A stretch of 23,752 nucleotides of DNA, from the IMG/VR virus record IMGVR_UViG_3300048588_000146, positions 1-23,752 of that record; one strand, given 5' to 3'. The position numbers were made by a program, and so were the translations under genes. Source of the stretch: a virus. Of this stretch, positions 87-23,155 are shown in pieces; positions within the stretch are counted from its first letter, which is position 1; every line of letters begins with the position of its first letter. The notes under the pieces are model-generated. The model searched no databases. It had not been told where the DNA came from and saw nothing but the letters and a program-made list of their open reading frames with translations.

Positions 87-127
87 TTGACAAAATGTCA
101 ATGGATAGCTTATGCTATCAAATGACA
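87..127 (+). promoter_or_regulatory. Sigma70-type promoter with overlapping operator dyad
   Basis: The -35 box is a perfect TTGACA (87-92) and the -10 box is TATGCT (111-116), 18 bp apart. The start would be near 123. A large dyad, 96-109 against 114-127, has 14-base arms matching at 12 positions around a TTAT centre: outer TGTCA/TGACA and inner GATAGC/GCTATC. It covers the -10 box. A smaller dyad, TGACA-AAA-TGTCA (88-100), covers the -35 box. This is the layout of a repressible phage promoter. The small protein at 147-437 is a natural candidate for the autorepressor, but that link is inferred. Confidence 0.75.
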
Positions 128-437: not shown

Positions 438-452
438 ACTACATGAGGCAAT

Positions 453-530
453 AAAAAAAGTCCGCTCGACGCATCCTCCTCAGGAACAATCGATTGGACT
501 TTCTAGGAATGATCACAGGGCATGTGATCG
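453..530 (-). ncRNA. Candidate antisense-oriented small RNA with own promoter and terminator
   Basis: On the minus strand, TTGACA (plus 566-561) and TAGTAT (plus 542-537) are 18 bp apart, predicting a start near 530. The transcript would contain a perfect 7-bp hairpin, GATCACA/TGTGATC (plus 511-529, 5-base loop). It would end in AAAGTCC/GGACTTT (plus 502-457) followed directly by a run of T residues, the form of an intrinsic terminator. Inner pairings TCGA/TCGA and TCC/GGA are also possible. The result is an RNA of about 78 nt in the gap between two plus-strand genes. The target is unknown. The same dyads could instead act as plus-strand leader hairpins of the initiator gene. Confidence 0.45.
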
Positions 531-581
531 CTTGTAATACTACTGCAACATTCATGCAGGTGTCAAGATCGAAAACGGCCC

Positions 582-604: not shown

Positions 605-1963
605 TTGGAGCAGGATCGAGGCTGGCAACCCGGCGTTAAAGCCCGGTTGCTGTATGACCATCTCGCCCGCATAGCAGGCCCACCCAGGCGGCTGACATCG
701 AACGGCCGCAAGCTGGCCGCGGACGCCGGCTGCGCCTACTCGCTTGTCGTGAAATATCTCGGCGAGCTGGAGGAGGCCGGCTGGCTTCAGCGCGTCCGCC
801 ACAAACACGGCGACACCGAATACGTGCTCACCCGGCCAGAACTGGCCAACGCAACACCTGAACAGGCCGCTTCAATGCGCGCCTGCAACCCGCCATCATC
901 CACGGTGATGGTTCCCTCAACTCCGGCCACCGACGCGCCGGCTGATCCCCAGCACTCCCCAGCATCCTCGGCATCCTCAGTGCCGCCCGCCGGCCAAAGC
1001 GAAGGCTCAATGGACAAGGTTCAAAGTTCAGATTTCTCCATAAACAGCAGCGAGGAAATGAACTTTGAAGAATCGCCCAGCCTTCAAAGTTCACTCGAGA
1101 AAGTTCAAAGTTCAGATTTGGGCATAAAAAATGAACTTTCAACTTCTCAAAGTTCAGAATTGAGCATAAGAGCGCCGGAAAGCGGCCTCAAAGTTCAAAG
1201 TTCAGAGTTCAAAGTTCAAAGTTCAGCCAATGCATATGTACCACCAGTACGTACAGTACTTATTAAGCAGCAGCATGCATTGCTTGCTGCAAAAATGAAC
1301 TTTGAACCCCAAAGGGACGTTCCGCTTTCTGGCGCTGAAAGTTCAGAACCGCCCACCAACGAGGGTGGGGCAGCGGACACCCTGACAGACGCGCAGAAAG
1401 TTCAACTCAAAGTCATCGCCGCGCAATTCCACAAGCGCCTTTTGCAGCTCCTGTCCGAATACAACATCAACGGCCGCAAGCGCACCGAACTGGCCGCGCA
1501 GATCTGCAAACTCGTGGCCGACAACTTGCACCCCGAGCGATACGAGCAGGTGCTGGCCGATGTGAAAGCCGGCCTCGAACAGGCCAAGAAACGCCAGGCC
1601 GCCGGCCTGGTGACAAACGCTGAAGCCGTCGGCGTGCGGATCCTGATGGACTACGTGGCTACCGGCCAGCTCACGCTGTTCGATGTGCCCCCGCCGGTCG
1701 CAAAGCAAGGGGGCAAGCGGGGCGGCAGAGGCCGCACCTTTCGGCGCGAGCAGGTGCCGCCACACCGCGGGCCGCAAACTGAGATCGATGCGATGCGGCG
1801 CAACGCCGAGCAAGCCCGGCTGCGCGGCGAGCATGACAAGGCAGCCAGGTGGCTGGAGAACGCCGCGAAACTGGAAGCACAACTGGCAACCCAACACACC
1901 AACCCACAATCTACGATCCGAGATGAACGTTCACAACCTCAAGCCCTACCAGATCAACCATGA
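605..1963 (+). CDS. Phage replication initiator (lambda O-like organisation)
   Basis: This 452-residue protein is read from TTG 605; AAAGG at 591-595 supplies the RBS and an in-frame stop lies only seven codons upstream. Residues about 12-78 form a winged-helix DNA-binding domain (RLTSNGRKLAADAGCAYSLV, then LGELEEAGWLQRV). Residues about 80-255 are low-complexity, serine-rich, and contain recurring KVQSS and MNFE peptides. These are the translation of DNA iterons lying in the gene. Residues about 262-350 form a helical domain, followed by a basic GGKRGGRGR tract and a charged C-terminal helix. An N-terminal origin-binding domain, a linker encoded by the origin, and a C-terminal partner-binding domain is the plan of lambda O-type initiators. 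That class suits the architecture; no close family member is recognised. The end overlaps the next gene by 41 bp. Confidence 0.75.
   Translation: MEQDRGWQPGVKARLLYDHLARIAGPPRRLTSNGRKLAADAGCAYSLVVKYLGELEEAGWLQRVRHKHGDTEYVLTRPELANATPEQAASMRACNPPSSTVMVPSTPATDAPADPQHSPASSASSVPPAGQSEGSMDKVQSSDFSINSSEEMNFEESPSLQSSLEKVQSSDLGIKNELSTSQSSELSIRAPESGLKVQSSEFKVQSSANAYVPPVRTVLIKQQHALLAAKMNFEPQRDVPLSGAESSEPPTNEGGAADTLTDAQKVQLKVIAAQFHKRLLQLLSEYNINGRKRTELAAQICKLVADNLHPERYEQVLADVKAGLEQAKKRQAAGLVTNAEAVGVRILMDYVATGQLTLFDVPPPVAKQGGKRGGRGRTFRREQVPPHRGPQTEIDAMRRNAEQARLRGEHDKAARWLENAAKLEAQLATQHTNPQSTIRDERSQPQALPDQP
1016..1405. repeat. AAAGTTC iteron array, probable replication origin
   Basis: The 7-mer AAAGTTC or its complement occurs 14 times exactly and twice with one change. 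Direct copies start at 1023, 1086, 1100, 1107, 1149, 1190, 1197, 1211, 1218, 1338 and 1397. Inverted copies are at 1060, 1133 and 1297. Variants are AAGGTTC (1016) and AGAGTTC (1204). Five units are in perfect tandem at 1190-1224. Between the tandem block and the 1297 copy, 1227-1296 is relatively AT-rich and carries small dyads (AGTAC/GTACT at 1246-1260; GCAGC/GCTGC at 1267-1290), a candidate unwinding region. A 7-bp unit is out of phase with codons, so selection on DNA rather than protein is the simpler explanation. Confidence 0.8.
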
Positions 1964-2257: not shown

Positions 2258-2467
2258 ATGGCCAACACCATCAACACGTCTTCCCTCACCGTCAAGCGCG
2301 TTGCAGGCGGCCGCGCCTGGTATCAGGTGCTCGACCGCGACGGCAACGAGATGAGCTCGGGCTGGCAGCGGATCGCCTGGCGCGGCGAATGGATGCAGGG
2401 CGGCAACGCCGCTGCGAAGCCGGCAAAAATCGCGAAGAAGCGGGTTGTATATAGGACAAAGTCTTGA
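2258..2467 (+). CDS. Small basic protein of unknown function
   Basis: This 69-residue protein starts at ATG 2258, two bases after the stop of the winged-helix gene, in the same apparent operon. The first half (LTVKRVAGGRAWYQVLDRDG, then GNEMSSGWQRIAWRGEW) looks like a compact beta-rich fold. The tail is lysine- and alanine-rich (KPAKIAKKRVVYRTKS). No family is recognised. The tight spacing to its neighbour and its reading-frame character support a real gene. A nucleic-acid-binding role would fit the basic tail but is only a guess. Confidence 0.6.
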   Translation: MANTINTSSLTVKRVAGGRAWYQVLDRDGNEMSSGWQRIAWRGEWMQGGNAAAKPAKIAKKRVVYRTKS

Positions 2468-4483: not shown

Positions 4484-4867
4484 ATGGGAAATCGCAAATC
4501 TGCCTTGATCGTCGTTGTCGCGCTCGCGCTGATCGTCGCCGGCGTCTCCATGGCGCGGGCAAAGCCATATCCCGATCTGCCCGACACGCCGGCCTACACC
4601 AGCCGGTATGGGGTCATCGACGACCTCGTGGCGCTGCAGAACCGCATCGATGCGCTCGAGCGCGACAACGCCGCGCTGCGCGAGGAGCTGCGCGAGGCGC
4701 GTGACCAGGCCGGCGCGCTCGTGCTGCTCAGGGCGCACGACATTTCGCAGCGCGACACGATGGTTGCTGATGCCTGGCAGGCCTGGCAGGCGGCGCGTGT
4801 GGAAGACCAGAAGCGGATCACGAGCCTGGAATGGAACGTGAATCGCATCTGGGAGATGTGCAGGTAA
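4484..4867 (+). CDS. Membrane-anchored coiled-coil protein, spanin-like topology
   Basis: This 127-residue protein is read from ATG 4484, which has AGGAG four bases upstream; an in-frame ATG at 4460 lacks an RBS. Residues 6-24 are a hydrophobic anchor or uncleaved signal (SALIVVVALALIVAGVSMARA). Residues about 48-85 are a strong coiled coil (LQNRIDALERDNAALREELR). The rest is helical and tryptophan-containing. One N-terminal membrane helix plus an extracytoplasmic coiled coil is the topology of inner-membrane spanins (Rz-like), and its place beside holin-like genes fits. No sequence family is recognised, and spanins require a diderm host, so the role is uncertain. Confidence 0.65.
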   Translation: MGNRKSALIVVVALALIVAGVSMARAKPYPDLPDTPAYTSRYGVIDDLVALQNRIDALERDNAALREELREARDQAGALVLLRAHDISQRDTMVADAWQAWQAARVEDQKRITSLEWNVNRIWEMCR

Positions 4868-4911
4868 CTCAGGCAAGTAATTCTGGAGGCAACTCAGGAG
4901 GCAAAAACAAC

Positions 4912-5841
4912 ATGAACAAACGACTTACGGGGATCTTCATCGCGCTCGTTCTGACGCTGTCGCTCGTGCCGGCGCGGGCGCAAACGCCGCCGGCGTTCGA
5001 TCCGCGCTACGACCTCAACAACGACGGCGTGCTCGACATCCGCGACGTGAGCGCACTCACAACATTCGTGGAGGCCAACTACGGCGCCACGGCGCAGGAA
5101 CCGCCGGCGACCGCAACCCCCACGCCGACCGCAACGGCAACCCCGCATGCGCACCCGACGCAAGCCCCTGGCGCGCTCGGCGCGTGTGGTGAATCCATGA
5201 GCGCCTGGCATCCGCCGGTTGTGGACGGTTGTGCCACGGGCCATGAGCATGGCGATGCGCCGCCGGCGTGGGTGATGAGCGCGAACACGCCGAAGCCTTT
5301 CAGCCAGTCCAGAGAATCGCACGTGGGCTACAAGGGCGTGTTTGCGCGGCACTCGTCCGGCGCCGAGTCATATTGGATCGCGCACATTCTCTCGACCGCG
5401 CCGGCGCGCGCGCATGGCGACCACGACTATCAGCTCTGGCTGAAAACGACCGATGGCAAGGTGTATTACTGGGACGGCCTGCTCTGCTTTGCCAACCCAT
5501 GCGCGGGCACGCCGCCGCTGCGAACCTCAGACACCGGCGAGCGGCCGATCATCCTGGCGCAACGGGATGCAGGGTGTGAAACCTGGTATGGCCGGGCCGA
5601 GCGCGGCATCGTCGATGTCGAATGGGTGATCTGCGGGCGCAACCAGCATTTCGACCTGAGCCAGTCCAGCGGCGTCGGCACCCACAGGACGATGGGCTGG
5701 ATCTTCTATCAAAACCGCTTCAGCGGCGAGGTTGGGCAGTCGCTGGCGCGCGACTGCCGGTTCGAATTTGGATTCTGCCGCCTGCAGTTCCTCGTCAGCG
5801 CGAAGGAATATCCAAAAACCGGCGTGATCATCCCCAACTAG
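4912..5841 (+). CDS. Secreted protein with dockerin-like calcium loop and Chloroflexota-type HEHGD domain
   Basis: This 309-residue protein starts at ATG 4912 behind AGGAGG (4896-4901). Residues 1-24 are a classical signal peptide ending PARAQ. Residues about 29-62 contain YDLNNDGVLDIRD, a dockerin or EF-hand-like calcium loop (DxNxDGxxDxxD). A threonine- and proline-rich linker (63-90) follows. The remainder is a cysteine- and aromatic-rich domain with GCATGHEHGDAPPAW near its start and tryptophan-rich strands later (YWIAHIL, YQLWLKTTDGKVYYWDG). I associate this domain, from memory, with secreted proteins of Chloroflexota of unknown function. In a phage it may be a host-derived moron, an envelope-acting lysis factor or a surface protein. 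No peptidoglycan hydrolase motif is visible. Confidence 0.75.
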   Translation: MNKRLTGIFIALVLTLSLVPARAQTPPAFDPRYDLNNDGVLDIRDVSALTTFVEANYGATAQEPPATATPTPTATATPHAHPTQAPGALGACGESMSAWHPPVVDGCATGHEHGDAPPAWVMSANTPKPFSQSRESHVGYKGVFARHSSGAESYWIAHILSTAPARAHGDHDYQLWLKTTDGKVYYWDGLLCFANPCAGTPPLRTSDTGERPIILAQRDAGCETWYGRAERGIVDVEWVICGRNQHFDLSQSSGVGTHRTMGWIFYQNRFSGEVGQSLARDCRFEFGFCRLQFLVSAKEYPKTGVIIPN

Positions 5842-6343: not shown

Positions 6344-8017
6344 ATGAATGCTGTAGTAGCTGCAACTGCCAGCAATTCATATTCGTCAGCAACATCGTCA
6401 CCCAGCGCAACGATGCCATCGGGCATTGTCGCGGGTAGCCTGTTGCTGACGAGTTTGATGCTTGACGCGGGCAGTGATTTGACCATCACGCCGCCGTCGG
6501 GATGGACGCTCTACACCCGCGCCAACAACGGCACAGGGTCATTCCTGTGCGCGATTTTCTATCGCATCGCGGATGGCAGCGAAGGGAGCAGCTATTCATA
6601 CACGCTGGGCAGCAGCGTTGTTGGCTCTGTTCAAACGATACGCATCGCCAGCCACGATGCGACATGGGAAGACGCCACGCCGACGCAGAACACCGGCTTG
6701 TCAGAGTCGATGGGCTACTACGGCGTTACAACCAACACCGCAAACGCGCTTGCCATCGCCTATGTTGGCGTTGACTCAACATCCAACGTCCCGACTGCAC
6801 CCAGCGGATTCACCAGCGAGAGCAGCGGCAACGGCTCCTCTCGCGGCTGGCGCATTTCGTCGCTGGTCGTTTCGTCGCCTGGGTGGATAGGCAACAGCTA
6901 CGTATCGACGCAAGGATCGACGCGCCACTGGGCGACGATCATGATTGCGATCAAGCCTTCCAGCGGTGCGGCAACCTACACCGGCTCAGGCACACTGACC
7001 ACGCCGGCAGTGACGGCCAGCGGCAGCGGCACGTTTACAGAAGCATCGACCACCTACACCGGCAACGGGTCGCTATCGTTGCCAGTCGCAACACTCGCCG
7101 GCAGTGGCACGTTCACTGCGCCGGTTTACTCAGCAACAGGCACACTCGCCGCGCCGGCTATCACTGCGTCAGGGTCAGGCACGTTTACCGCGCCGATATA
7201 CACGGGTAGCGGCGCATTGCAATCGCCCGCGTTGACCATCGCCGGCACAGGCACGCACACAACGCCCGCATACACCGGCTCTGGCACGCTTGCCCTTGCG
7301 CCGATCACTGCAACGGGTAGCGGGACATTCACCGCCCCAACGTATACAGGCAGCGGCACGTTGAATGCGCCGGCTGTCACAGTAGCCGGCACGGGCGCAT
7401 TCGCCAATGCAATCTACACCGGCACAGGCGCAATGTCGTTGCCGGCGGCTACTGTGTCGGGCGTCGGCACATTCACCGCGCCAACGTATACGGGTAGTGG
7501 ATCACTAATCGCGCCGGCGCTTGACCTTGACGGTTCGGGCGCATTCGCAAGCGTTATCTACAGCGGCGCGGGTGCGTTGACATTGCCCGCCGTGACTGCA
7601 TCAGGCAGCGGCACATTTACAGCACCCACCTACACCGGCACGGGCAACCTGACGATTGCCGGCCCAACGATTGCCGGCGATGGCACGTTTACAGGCGTGC
7701 CGGCTGGCAGTGGTGTGCTAGTCGTGCCGGCGTTGACGATGACCGGCAGTGGAACGTTTACGGCTGGCACGGCGACGGGCAGCGGCGACATTGAAGCGCC
7801 GGCGCTTGTGCTGAGTGGGGCGGGGTCGTTCACCGCGCCGGTATACACCGGCTCAGGCGCGTTAGTCATGCCCGCCATGACGATGGCAGGAACGGACGTG
7901 CGGGCGGCCTACATCACACTCTCGCCGCGCATCAGGCCACACACGATCACGCCCGAAGACAGACAACAAACACTCACGCCGCGATTGCGCCGGCACACTG
8001 AGACGGTGACGAGGTAA
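6344..8017 (+). CDS. Repetitive virion surface protein, fibre or adhesin candidate
   Basis: This 557-residue protein starts at ATG 6344, eight bases after the previous stop, with no clear Shine-Dalgarno. Residues 1-211 form a beta-rich domain (LTITPPSGWTLYTRANNGTG, FYRIADGSEGSSYSYTLGSS) of a kind seen in phage and environmental surface proteins. Residues 212-517 are 13 tandem units of about 24 residues on the pattern YTGSGTLxxPAxTxxGSGTFTAPx. Residues about 518-557 form a basic tail (LSPRIRPHTITPEDRQQTLT) with two further short repeats. It lacks a signal peptide, consistent with a virion part rather than a secreted protein. A tail fibre, head fibre or decoration role is plausible; I cannot decide between them. 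Confidence 0.75.
   Translation: MNAVVAATASNSYSSATSSPSATMPSGIVAGSLLLTSLMLDAGSDLTITPPSGWTLYTRANNGTGSFLCAIFYRIADGSEGSSYSYTLGSSVVGSVQTIRIASHDATWEDATPTQNTGLSESMGYYGVTTNTANALAIAYVGVDSTSNVPTAPSGFTSESSGNGSSRGWRISSLVVSSPGWIGNSYVSTQGSTRHWATIMIAIKPSSGAATYTGSGTLTTPAVTASGSGTFTEASTTYTGNGSLSLPVATLAGSGTFTAPVYSATGTLAAPAITASGSGTFTAPIYTGSGALQSPALTIAGTGTHTTPAYTGSGTLALAPITATGSGTFTAPTYTGSGTLNAPAVTVAGTGAFANAIYTGTGAMSLPAATVSGVGTFTAPTYTGSGSLIAPALDLDGSGAFASVIYSGAGALTLPAVTASGSGTFTAPTYTGTGNLTIAGPTIAGDGTFTGVPAGSGVLVVPALTMTGSGTFTAGTATGSGDIEAPALVLSGAGSFTAPVYTGSGALVMPAMTMAGTDVRAAYITLSPRIRPHTITPEDRQQTLTPRLRRHTETVTR
6977..7894 (+). repeat. 13 tandem 72-bp coding repeats
   Basis: The region encodes 13 degenerate units, most of exactly 24 residues, each starting YTGSG or a variant and containing PA and GTFTAP. 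The period stays in frame. Divergence between units is considerable at DNA level, so the array is not recent, but copy-number change by recombination is expected. Confidence 0.85.
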
Positions 8018-18755: not shown

Positions 18756-21431
18756 ATGGCAAACGGCGACACGCAAGAAGTCAAGCTCGTTGTAACCGGC
18801 AAAGACGTTAGCGGCAAACAGACTATCAAGGATGTTGCTGATACCGTCAATGAGGTTAATCAAGGTCTGGGTGGCGTTGCAGCAAGCGGCGTAGCGGCTG
18901 AGGCCGCGTTAAACGGCGTGGCAATTGCGGCGGCGGCGGCGCTTGGCGTGTTGGGTGCGATTGCGATTGCCATTGGTAAAGTCGTTGAATTCACTCTTGG
19001 CGCAATTGAAGCGCAGCGGCAGTGGGGTGAACAGATCGACGGCATCCAACGCCTGACGGGTCTCACGGCTGAGTATGCCAGCACGCTTGCGACGATTGGC
19101 GAGATTGCCGGCGTCAGCACGCAAGAAATAGAAGCGATGGCGCAGAATCAGGCGCGCATCTTCTATCAAGCCAACATCATCCAGCAAAAGGCCGCAGAAG
19201 ACACCGCGCTTGCGCGTGAGCGTGCCGAGCAGCGCGTCGCGGCATTCATCGAACAAAACGAGAAGCGCATCGCCGACATCAAAGCGGCCAGCGAAGAACG
19301 GCTGCAAGGGCTTGCGGAAGACACGGCAGAAGCGCGGGAACGATTCGCGCAACAGGAACAGCGTGCGGCAGAGCAGAACGCAGAGCGCCGCGCCGAGATT
19401 GAACGCGCCACAAATCAACGCCTCGCAGACCTGAACGAATCGCACGCCGAGCGTGTGGCGTCGTTGCAACAGCGCATCATCGAAGCCAGCCAGCAGCGCA
19501 CCGAAACCGTAGAGCGCGACGAAGAACGCCACACGGCGCGGGTTGGCGACCTGCAGGAACGGCTGGCCGAAACGCAAGCCGACTACCAACGCAAAGCGGA
19601 AGAACGCACCGACGAATACAACCGACGGCAAGCGGAAGCGGCGCGGCATTTAAACGAGCGATTGGTAGAGCTGGCACGCCGGCGCGACGATCAAATAGCC
19701 GATTCACAGGAACGCGCTGCGCAACGCAGTGAAGACCTCGCACGCCGGTATCAGGAGAAGATCGAAGCCGCAGAGCAATCAATCGAGGATTTGCGCGAGT
19801 CGTTTGCGCAGCGGCAGGAAGAACGGCAGGAACGCCTCACGCAGCGGCTTGAATCGCTGGAAGAATCCGGCGAACAGAAGCGCATCGCCACACAAGACCG
19901 CATCAACCGCGCATCGAATGAATTTGAAGCGCGGGCGATTCGCGCTGAACTGGATGCGTTCAACAAACAGCAAGCCGAGAAAGCCGCAGAGATCCGCAAG
20001 GCCGCAGAGGATGAAGAAGCAAAGCAACAGGCGGCATTTGATAAACGCCTTGCACGGCTTCAAGAGCGCATCGACAAAGAAACGGCTGAGTATGCGCGGC
20101 AGACGGCAGAGATCAAGGCCGAACTAGAGAAGCGCGAGAAAGACGCGCTTGAAAGCGCGCAGCGGCAGACAAACGCGCTGATTGAAGAATCCAGCCGGCG
20201 CGCATTGGCAACGGCTGACCAGTTGGCACGCGAGAACGCCGAGGCGCAGCGCGTCAACGCTGAACGGCTGGCCGACATTCAGAAGCGCATCGAATCAGAG
20301 AACGCCGAATTTTCAAAACAGACTGGCGTCATTCAGCAAGAGAACAACACGCGGCTTGAGGCGTTACAGGCTGCGCTTGAGAAAGAACAGGCCGCCTACC
20401 AAAAGCAGACGGGGCGCATACAGGAAGAATCATCACGCCGGCTTGACCAGCTGGCAAAGAGCTACACCGAAGACCGCGCCAACGCACTGGCCGCGCTGGA
20501 TGAACAAATCGAAGACAACGCGATTGCGCAAGCCAAGATTTTGCAAGACACGCAGAAGCGCATCGACGATGCCAACGCATCCTACATCGCAAGCGTGCAA
20601 ACGTTGGGGCAGGAACTTGACCGGCAGTTGGCACAGATCGCGCAGACCGCGCCGCCGGCGGTGCGTGCCATTGAAAAGCTAGGGTTGAACTTTGACGAGT
20701 TGAAGAAACTCAAGCCCGAAGACCAGCTAGACGCAATCTTCAAAGCAATGGATAAGTTGCCGGATTCAACCGAGAAAGCCGGCCTTGCAACGGCCATATT
20801 CGGCGCGAATGCAAAAGATGTGAGCAAGCTGGCGGAAGTGTATTCACAAAAGACACTGCCTGAGTGGATACAAAAGACCGAAGACCTGAACAAACTAATG
20901 AGTCAGGACAGCGTTGACGCGGCGGTGAAGATGAGCGAACAGCAGCGCATCTTGAGAATGGACTTAGAAAGTGTGCGGCTGGAAGTGGGTGAGAAGCTGT
21001 TGCCCAAGTGGAACGACCTCTTGACCGCGTTTGACAAGTTTTGGCAAACGTCGGGGCCGGCGGTGGTTGAGACAGTGGGCAAGATTGCAGACGGCATCGG
21101 CTCAATCATCGACACCATCACGCGGCTGATTGACACGCTGAATAGATCAGGGCTGGGCGGGTTGTTGGGCATCGGCGGCAATTCGCAATCGCTTGCGCAA
21201 GCCGGCGGCATTGGTTCGCTCGGCAATAGCTTGATTGGCTATGCGGGCGTGGCACAGGCCGGCATGTTGTTTGGGAATCAGATTGGCTCTGACATTCGCG
21301 GCGGCGTGCCAGTGGGCGACATGATTACAAACAACTGGAATCTCACAGCACAGATAGCACAGAACACAGGCCGCAGCCTTGAAGACACTGTTCGGATGCT
21401 TTCAATGTTATTCGGCGGGAGTAATCGCTAA
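18756..21431 (+). CDS. Tail tape measure protein with giant coiled-coil insertion
   Basis: This 891-residue protein starts at ATG 18756, four bases after the preceding stop. Residues about 50-85 are hydrophobic (GVAIAAAAALGVLGAIAIAI). Residues 90-135 (WGEQIDGIQRLTGLTAEYAS; IGEIAGVSTQEIEAMAQNQA) and 641-695 (KLGLNFDELKKLKPEDQLDA; EKAGLATAIFGANAKDVSKL) read as the two halves of a conserved tape-measure core. Between them, about residues 140-635 are an unbroken, highly charged coiled coil built from repeated R/E/Q/A-rich units. The C-terminus is glycine-rich with hydrophobic stretches. The protein sets tail length and passes through the tube during infection. By the usual 0.15 nm per residue rule the tail would be about 130 nm. 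Confidence 0.93.
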   Translation: MANGDTQEVKLVVTGKDVSGKQTIKDVADTVNEVNQGLGGVAASGVAAEAALNGVAIAAAAALGVLGAIAIAIGKVVEFTLGAIEAQRQWGEQIDGIQRLTGLTAEYASTLATIGEIAGVSTQEIEAMAQNQARIFYQANIIQQKAAEDTALARERAEQRVAAFIEQNEKRIADIKAASEERLQGLAEDTAEARERFAQQEQRAAEQNAERRAEIERATNQRLADLNESHAERVASLQQRIIEASQQRTETVERDEERHTARVGDLQERLAETQADYQRKAEERTDEYNRRQAEAARHLNERLVELARRRDDQIADSQERAAQRSEDLARRYQEKIEAAEQSIEDLRESFAQRQEERQERLTQRLESLEESGEQKRIATQDRINRASNEFEARAIRAELDAFNKQQAEKAAEIRKAAEDEEAKQQAAFDKRLARLQERIDKETAEYARQTAEIKAELEKREKDALESAQRQTNALIEESSRRALATADQLARENAEAQRVNAERLADIQKRIESENAEFSKQTGVIQQENNTRLEALQAALEKEQAAYQKQTGRIQEESSRRLDQLAKSYTEDRANALAALDEQIEDNAIAQAKILQDTQKRIDDANASYIASVQTLGQELDRQLAQIAQTAPPAVRAIEKLGLNFDELKKLKPEDQLDAIFKAMDKLPDSTEKAGLATAIFGANAKDVSKLAEVYSQKTLPEWIQKTEDLNKLMSQDSVDAAVKMSEQQRILRMDLESVRLEVGEKLLPKWNDLLTAFDKFWQTSGPAVVETVGKIADGIGSIIDTITRLIDTLNRSGLGGLLGIGGNSQSLAQAGGIGSLGNSLIGYAGVAQAGMLFGNQIGSDIRGGVPVGDMITNNWNLTAQIAQNTGRSLEDTVRMLSMLFGGSNR

Positions 21432-22315: not shown

Positions 22316-23155
22316 TTACCTGTGATGGCGAACACGTTTAACCCCCGCAACGCGCCCGCCATGCCGGAAGTTTGGATTCCCAGCACCGGCATAGATGCGC
22401 TTGTCATGTGCGGCGCGGCATTCGCGGGAGCAAAAGCGGCGGCGCTTAGTTTCGGATGGCTTAATGTGAAATTCGCCGCCGCACTCAAGACACTTTTTGG
22501 CAAGATTGGCGGGGCGGGTGAGTGGATGTTTGGCAAGGTATGCGGCGCGAGATTTTGGGGCAGTGTAGCCTTTGTGCGACGGGCGTTCACCACGCACAAC
22601 CTTTGCAATTGCGCTGAAATCCAAATGATTGTCAACCGCAAATTGCAAAAGGTTTTTGCCGTTGATTGTCTCGCCAGTAGGCGAAACAAGTGTGAATTTT
22701 TGCGCGTTCATCCCTTTACGATCAAAAGATCGCACGGCAGCAATAATGCGTGCCATTCCTTCTGGGGAAATAGTTTTCTTTTTGCCGGTGAGAGCAATAG
22801 ACATTCTTCGCCGCGCTTCGTCGGTGTGCTTCATGCCCAGTTGAGACGCAGCGACCAAACGCGCATTGTAAACAGCGATGCCGGATTCTTTGAATCTGTC
22901 AAGCCATTGCTGTTCAAGGGTAAGACATTCTTCCGGTGCGCAATTTTGCAGGGGGACAAATGCAAATGCACTTTCGCCGTATTTGTTCCATGCCGCTTGA
23001 AGGTGTGGCGTGCGGTGTTTGTTGTTTCTGAGCAAATACCAATGCTCGTAATGTCGATGACGCAAACAACGCGCCGCACTGCCAACATAGCGGGCTTGGT
23101 TGACAACATTCAAGATCATGTAAATGCCGGATTTTGTCGTGTCTATGTGTCCCAT
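22316..23155 (-). CDS. GIY-YIG homing endonuclease
   Basis: This 279-residue protein is the only convincing minus-strand gene. Residues 10-12 are GIY and 23-25 are YVG (YIG variant), followed by the expected arginine and histidine-rich helix (CLRHRHYEHWYLL) and a late glutamate (LEQQWLDRF). Residues about 106-125 (LGMKHTDEARRRMSIALTGK) resemble NUMOD3 DNA-binding motifs. Residues 152-195 (FTLVSPTGETINGKNLLQFA) resemble an intron-encoded nuclease repeat. The C-terminus has four cysteines (CLECGGEF and FCSRECRAAHD) and NPNFRHGG. It would cut a related phage genome at this locus and spread by repair. It looks intact, is richer in A and T than its neighbours, and sits exactly between two tail genes. 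Confidence 0.92.
   Translation of the reverse strand: MGHIDTTKSGIYMILNVVNQARYVGSAARCLRHRHYEHWYLLRNNKHRTPHLQAAWNKYGESAFAFVPLQNCAPEECLTLEQQWLDRFKESGIAVYNARLVAASQLGMKHTDEARRRMSIALTGKKKTISPEGMARIIAAVRSFDRKGMNAQKFTLVSPTGETINGKNLLQFAVDNHLDFSAIAKVVRGERPSHKGYTAPKSRAAYLAKHPLTRPANLAKKCLECGGEFHIKPSETKRRRFCSRECRAAHDKRIYAGAGNPNFRHGGRVAGVKRVRHHR

Follow-up and report, generated by a model that had tools for sequence, protein, structure and literature searches.

A candidate replication origin of AAAGTTC repeats inside the initiator gene of a probable Chloroflexota phage

How does the gene for a putative replication initiator come to carry sixteen copies of one short DNA word in its middle, and does the segment that holds them serve as an origin of replication? 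The question is raised by a 23,752-base stretch of DNA (henceforth referred to as the window), which is the IMG/VR virus record IMGVR_UViG_3300048588_000146 and probably a fragment of a virus genome. A first-pass annotation of the window had proposed that AAAGTTC-type 7-mers form an iteron origin embedded in the initiator gene and that this type of repeat is undescribed. We find that the segment at 1016-1403 is probably the replication origin of a tailed phage, located inside its own initiator gene, and that its repeat type has precedents. To our knowledge, the origins of phages from uncultured phyla such as Chloroflexota are almost unmapped. The features on which the argument depends are collected in Table 1.

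The downstream genes of the window encode the small and large terminase, portal, head, major capsid, tape measure and tail proteins. Since relatives of the terminase TerL, at 51-53% identity, sit in two Chloroflexota genomes, the host of the virus probably belongs to this phylum. Elsewhere in the window, the minus strand at 22316-23155, opposite to the other large genes, encodes a free-standing GIY-YIG homing endonuclease with a weak NUMOD3 motif (both by Pfam matches), and a long ORF at 6344-8017 is built of the degenerate repeat YTGSGTL..PA.T.SGSGTF..P and probably encodes a tail or surface protein in which the number of repeats varies. The first two thirds of the tape-measure gene (18756-21431) encode a long Gln/Glu/Arg-rich coiled coil, and known tape-measure families match its product only past residue 618.

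Table 1. Features of the replication region in window coordinates, with counterparts in L180, the locus of the related virus described in the text
Feature	Position	Strand	Basis, counterpart or remark
Promoter-like TTGACA-18-TATGCT, upstream of ORF 147	87..116	+	L180 counterpart TTGACA-18-TATAGT
Small ORF (ORF 147), 96 aa	147..437	+	67% identical in L180; position that cII holds in lambda
Predicted short antisense RNA, ~79 nt, 3' hairpin and T-run	452..530	-	Between ORF 147 and initiator gene
Inverted repeat GATCACA-N5-TGTGATC, operator-like	511..529		Sequence; imperfect in L180
Leftward promoter-like TTGACA-18-TAGTAT	537..566	-	L180 counterpart TTGACA-16-TACAAT, 4950-4923 (11/12)
Inverted repeat TGTGACC-N5-GGTCACA, directly before initiator start codon	582..600		Nearly kept in L180
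Initiator (O-like) gene	605..1963	+	PHROG matches, AlphaFold2 models, L180 homologue
Iteron array	1016..1403	+	14 exact and 2 one-mismatch AAAGTTC; 13 forward, 3 reverse; in linker-coding part of initiator gene
Least stable 50 bp of the whole 23.7 kb window, candidate unwinding element	1123..1172		Nearest-neighbour stability scan; inside array
Five abutting heptamers AAAGTTC AAAGTTC AGAGTTC AAAGTTC AAAGTTC	1190..1224	+	Identical in L180 5583-5617, AGAGTTC variant included
A+T-rich segment with GTACGTAC and GCATGC words	1225..1290		Between tandem block and last reverse repeat; words kept in L180
LexA-type DNA-binding domain gene, no peptidase half, 110 aa	1923..2255	+	Overlaps initiator gene end
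Small ORF (MANTINTSS...RTKS)	2258..2467	+	Homologue at same L180 place (by eye); last recognisable gene of shared module

The word AAAGTTC occurs 15 times in the window as an exact match, and 14 of these occurrences lie at 1023-1403 (11 forward, 3 reverse). When one mismatch is allowed the array comprises 16 copies, located at 1016 (one mismatch), 1023, 1060 (reverse), 1086, 1100, 1107, 1133 (reverse), 1149, 1190, 1197, 1204 (one mismatch), 1211, 1218, 1297 (reverse), 1338 and 1397. The sixteen copies, their coordinates, their presence on both strands, the tandem run of five and their location in the linker of a winged-helix protein had all been described in the first-pass annotation and were recovered here; the middle unit of the tandem run is AGAGTTC. 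Every copy is followed by A (16/16) and 13 of the 16 are preceded by T(C/G), and the core of the array is T(C/G)AAAGTTCA, somewhat longer than 7 bp. The further claim that the repeats are not due to chance was borne out as well: shuffled windows contained AAAGTTC 1.43 times on average and 6 times at most compared with the 15 observed, local shuffles of 1000-1420 gave a mean of 0.056 and a maximum of 1 compared with 14, and shuffling the order of codons in the repeat zone gave no more than 3 copies. When synonymous codons were resampled according to the zone's own usage with the protein fixed, the mean was 4.2 and the maximum 10, and 14 copies were never reached in 5,000 draws. The copies fall into two forward codon phases (7 and 4 copies) and two on the reverse strand, and a single repeated peptide is therefore inadequate as an explanation. 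Together with the resampling, the multiple codon phases indicate that the repeat is a property of the DNA; the repeats are accounted for neither by chance nor by the protein sequence. Many of the spacings between copies equal 21, 41-42, 63 or 84 bp, which is suggestive of helical phasing, although this is confounded by codon phase and the 7-bp register and was left out as evidence.

The protein encoded by the gene that carries the array consists of a winged-helix N-domain (residues ~10-76), the repeat-bearing linker (~138-265) and a helical C-domain (~265-360). The AlphaFold2 model of the N-domain is a winged helix of the order H-E-H-H-E-E (mean pLDDT 76), and its matches in the PDB are many and generic winged helices, including 4pql ('N-terminal domain of DNA binding protein') and 4pt7 ('Structure of initiator'), which we take to be RepA_N-type plasmid initiators. 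The C-domain was modelled as four helices, and structure comparison of this model gave no convincing or informative match. In PHROG, the N-part of the window protein hits profiles annotated as 'replication initiation' and 'O-like' at E=7e-4 to 1e-3. For phrog_391 the values were 7e-4 in the window protein, a weak match confined to the N-part, and 5e-5 in its homologue from the related virus; for phrog_270, whose matches cover only the DNA-binding N-part, they went down to 1.6e-7 (the best, in the homologue). Neither of the two initiators had a match above cut-off in Pfam, and PF06970 (RepA_N) matched neither of them.

The homologue is encoded in the 56.9 kb virus record IMGVR_UViG_3300048597_000631, at the locus L180 (our loci L181, L212, L213 and L222-L224 are from the same record). 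The N-domains of the two initiators are about 70-74% identical and the C-domains 45%. The first-pass annotation had raised the absence of the repeats from relatives that keep the protein as an outcome that would count against it; L180 keeps both the protein and the array, whose 12 exact and 3 near copies occupy the corresponding part of the gene (L180 5395-5706) in both orientations, and 12 of the 16 exact AAAGTTC words in the 56.9 kb of the L180 virus lie inside this array. The inter-copy sequences AGATTTGAGCATAA and AGCGCC.GAAAGCGG are kept too. Where residues match between the window and L180, the same codon is used at 38 of 42 positions (90%) in the repeat zone. The corresponding counts are 43/63 for the winged helix, 31/58 for the C-domain and 66/87 for the LexA-like gene that follows; the difference between the repeat zone and the rest (140/208) is significant in this single pair of sequences (Fisher p=0.002), as is that between the repeat zone and the winged helix alone (p=0.009). 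It is difficult to see why silent sites should be more conserved in the disordered linker than in the folded domains unless the DNA itself has a function.

L180 was the sole initiator relative detected. With the window protein and its L180 homologue as queries, no relative was found among the INPHARED phages, and a plasmid search returned one partial, low-identity match to the repeat/linker part, in Streptomyces. Profile searches for prophage copies gave only weak winged-helix matches for the N-domain (over 400 + 158 + 29 Chloroflexota genomes) and only LexA-like proteins for the LexA domain (in Chloroflexota). A 21-nt pattern of the iteron unit was found in viral contigs in that of L180 and as three single matches, taken as chance, and no copy of the initiator was detectable in the TerL relatives.

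The resemblance between the two viruses is restricted to the replication region. When 29 window ORFs were compared with the L180 virus at E<1e-3, the matches were ORF 147, the initiator and the LexA-type protein, and one further ORF matched over a short stretch; at the same threshold the two viruses had no terminase, portal, capsid or tail protein in common. Since only the replication module is common to both, the iterons and the initiator would move as one block, and they appear to travel together between otherwise unrelated virions, as expected of a replicon. The LexA-type protein, at 81-83% identity, is the best conserved of the module, whereas ORF 147 has no Pfam family above its cut-off. 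No gene for a P-like helicase loader or a helicase was recognised beside the initiator gene, and the LexA-type domain gene comes next instead. Upstream of the initiator, a hairpin followed by a T-run lies 30-110 bases beyond the leftward promoter-like site, and the hairpin is nearly identical in L180, where promoter and hairpin together occupy 4834-4950 (folding z of -3.6 in the window and -1.9 in L180). These features predict, in both viruses, a candidate antisense RNA that resembles the OOP RNA of lambda in place and size. Rfam gave no family, and a search with the conserved hairpin as a DNA pattern retrieved only the contig of L180, with matches in Chloroflexota at chance level.

As for a site of opening, the 50-bp segment with the lowest duplex stability in the window was found inside the array; the orthologous block in L180 (5454-5503), again inside the array, ranks second in instability within the 10-kb L180 locus. 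The suggestion that GC skew would mark the region did not hold: cumulative GC skew has its minimum near 8 kb and not at the array at 1.2 kb, and the position of the origin is thus unsupported by skew. An origin within an O-like initiator gene is nevertheless favoured by the winged-helix N-domain, the matches to O-like families, the array kept in L180, the constraint at the DNA level, the unstable stretch and the lambda-like gene order. It also counts against an origin that abutting 7-bp units are shorter than the footprint of a winged helix, and not every copy could therefore be occupied independently.

We considered whether the array could have another basis. A functionless heptamer tandem repeat of bacterial type might have entered an unconstrained linker and spread there by slippage and inversion. 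Three AAAGTTC units in succession are indeed found in at least 118 stretches from many phyla, and are common without any link to replication; genomes chosen for holding an AAAGTTC repeat contain from tens to 177 occurrences of AAAGTTCAAAGTTC compared with 0-12 of the reversed control word, and one Chloroflexota genome contains 22 compared with none. Some bacterial arrays have both orientations (9 forward and 2 reverse in L075), and the first five exact forward copies of the phage array keep a 7-bp register. However, bacterial AAAGTTC arrays elsewhere are mostly one-stranded, and a neutral array is expected to change its copy number, whereas the five-unit block is identical in L180. Two viruses that are otherwise unrelated also have the array at one and the same place in the gene, and both the AGAGTTC variant and the sequence between copies are conserved; the codons of the array are more conserved than those of the folded domains. 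We therefore regard a functionless repeat as unlikely. Descent of the phage array from a bacterial heptamer repeat that was later exapted as iterons is possible, and fits both this account and an origin.

It is also conceivable that the repeats are operators, bound by the initiator, the product of ORF 147 or the LexA-like domain with the effect of regulating cassette transcription or titrating the regulator. Two small genes, one of them for a DNA-binding domain, flank the initiator gene and are conserved with it, and operator-like inverted repeats lie upstream at 511-529 and 582-600. Yet the array is situated several hundred bases inside the gene, distant from the promoter-like sites, and an origin accounts better for its copy number, the unstable stretch within it and the O-like N-domain, which makes operators a very unlikely main role, even though autoregulation could exist alongside origin function. 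That the repeats serve the protein, with the recurring peptides KVQSS(D/E)FSI and MNFE as functional binding motifs, we consider extremely improbable: the peptides do recur and are conserved in L180, but AAAGTTC yields different peptides in its two forward and two reverse-complement phases, synonymous sites in the repeat zone are conserved, and the array is lost when synonymous codons are resampled.

An origin inside the initiator gene invites comparison with known replicons. In lambda O, the N-terminal DNA-binding domain precedes the linker encoded by the iterons, and the lambda iterons are longer than the units of the window and run in one direction. The initiator gene of lambdoid phages has iterons and an A+T-rich tract at its centre, with 4 iterons in lambda itself and 6 in Stx phages (PMC7466680), and a 77-nt leftward, self-terminating OOP RNA is encoded between cII and O (PMC3349717). 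The window follows the lambda layout (PMC3349717, PMC7466680), with a small gene, a predicted leftward self-terminating RNA and an O-like gene with internal repeats in this order. In contrast to the 4 iterons and separate A+T tract of lambda, its short units number 16 and lie in both orientations, and the stretch of lowest stability is part of the array itself; moreover, a LexA-type domain is encoded downstream where no P gene was recognised, and the similarity of the protein to O-like families is weak and confined to its N-part. The weak homology to O and the lack of a recognisable P-like gene keep us from assigning the window to the lambda O-P module proper.

Plasmids of the RepN/RepA_N group (pLS32, pAD1 and pCF10) carry iterons in the repN coding sequence and have an initiator with an N-terminal helix-turn-helix domain (PMC4490491, PMC9743546); the pAD1-type iterons are 7-8 bp long and given as TAGTRRR (PMC4490491, PMC9743546), and an A+T-rich region is said to be missing from these plasmids (PMC4490491). 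The window resembles them in its short iterons within the initiator coding sequence and in an N-domain that matches 4pql and 4pt7 among many winged helices, but differs in its phage context, its repeat word and the absence of a RepA_N Pfam match. With the STRR-type heptamer repeats of bacterial genomes it has the identical tandem word AAAGTTC in common, although these are mostly one-stranded tandem runs, whereas the window copies are mostly spaced, lie on both strands and are conserved in a gene. In one Acidobacteria genome of many contigs (L032, G005), which holds 177 occurrences of AAAGTTCAAAGTTC, a forward run and a reverse run are often 40-250 bases apart, a pattern that resembles paired inverted heptamer arrays flanking something.

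In L145, a phage whose terminase is related to that of the window, a different gene shows weak similarity to phage replication initiation proteins (E=1e-4), and its linker contains six GCATGC palindromes at L145:4387-4469 in steps of 11, 11, 11, 33 and 11 bp; these repeats resemble another in-gene origin with helically phased short repeats. A dense CAACTGC repeat in L157 was also considered as an array within an initiator and was rejected, as its gene is DNA-methylase-like. Given the lambdoid, RepN/RepA_N and L145 cases, an in-gene origin with many copies of a short unit is not a new kind. The claim that the repeat type is undescribed thus had to be given up, since in-gene iterons of 7-8 bp are described for pAD1/RepN-type plasmids (PMC9743546, PMC4490491) and AAAGTTC is widespread in bacterial genomes. 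What appears to be specific to the window virus, judged from its sequence, is the AAAGTTC word, the 16 copies on both strands, the cassette with a predicted OOP-like RNA and the probable Chloroflexota phage as its carrier.

By analogy with lambda O and RepA_N, an origin at this site could work as follows. Cooperative binding of the initiator's winged-helix N-domain to the T(C/G)AAAGTTCA repeats would lead to opening of the A+T-rich DNA within or next to the array (1123-1172, 1225-1290), and the host helicase or its loader would be recruited by the helical C-domain. The repeats would be tolerated in the linker because the linker has no fold to keep. The upstream antisense RNA and the flanking small regulators would probably set the level of the initiator, and the initiator, iterons, antisense RNA and two small regulators would constitute one replication cassette that moves between phages. 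A fuller history, in which a mobile cassette of Chloroflexota phages acquired its origin when a common AAAGTTC tandem repeat was taken into the linker and made into two-stranded, high-copy iterons read by the initiator, with an OOP-like RNA that evolved apart from that of lambda, is put forward as a doubtful scenario.

Overall, a putative origin, the protein that would read it and a probable control RNA can here be named from sequence and could be moved as one 2.4-kb block. That exactly this block is common to two unrelated virions makes it a clear case of replication-module exchange, and the repetition of the lambda order in a distant lineage bears on whether an in-gene origin with an upstream antisense RNA is a recurrent solution.
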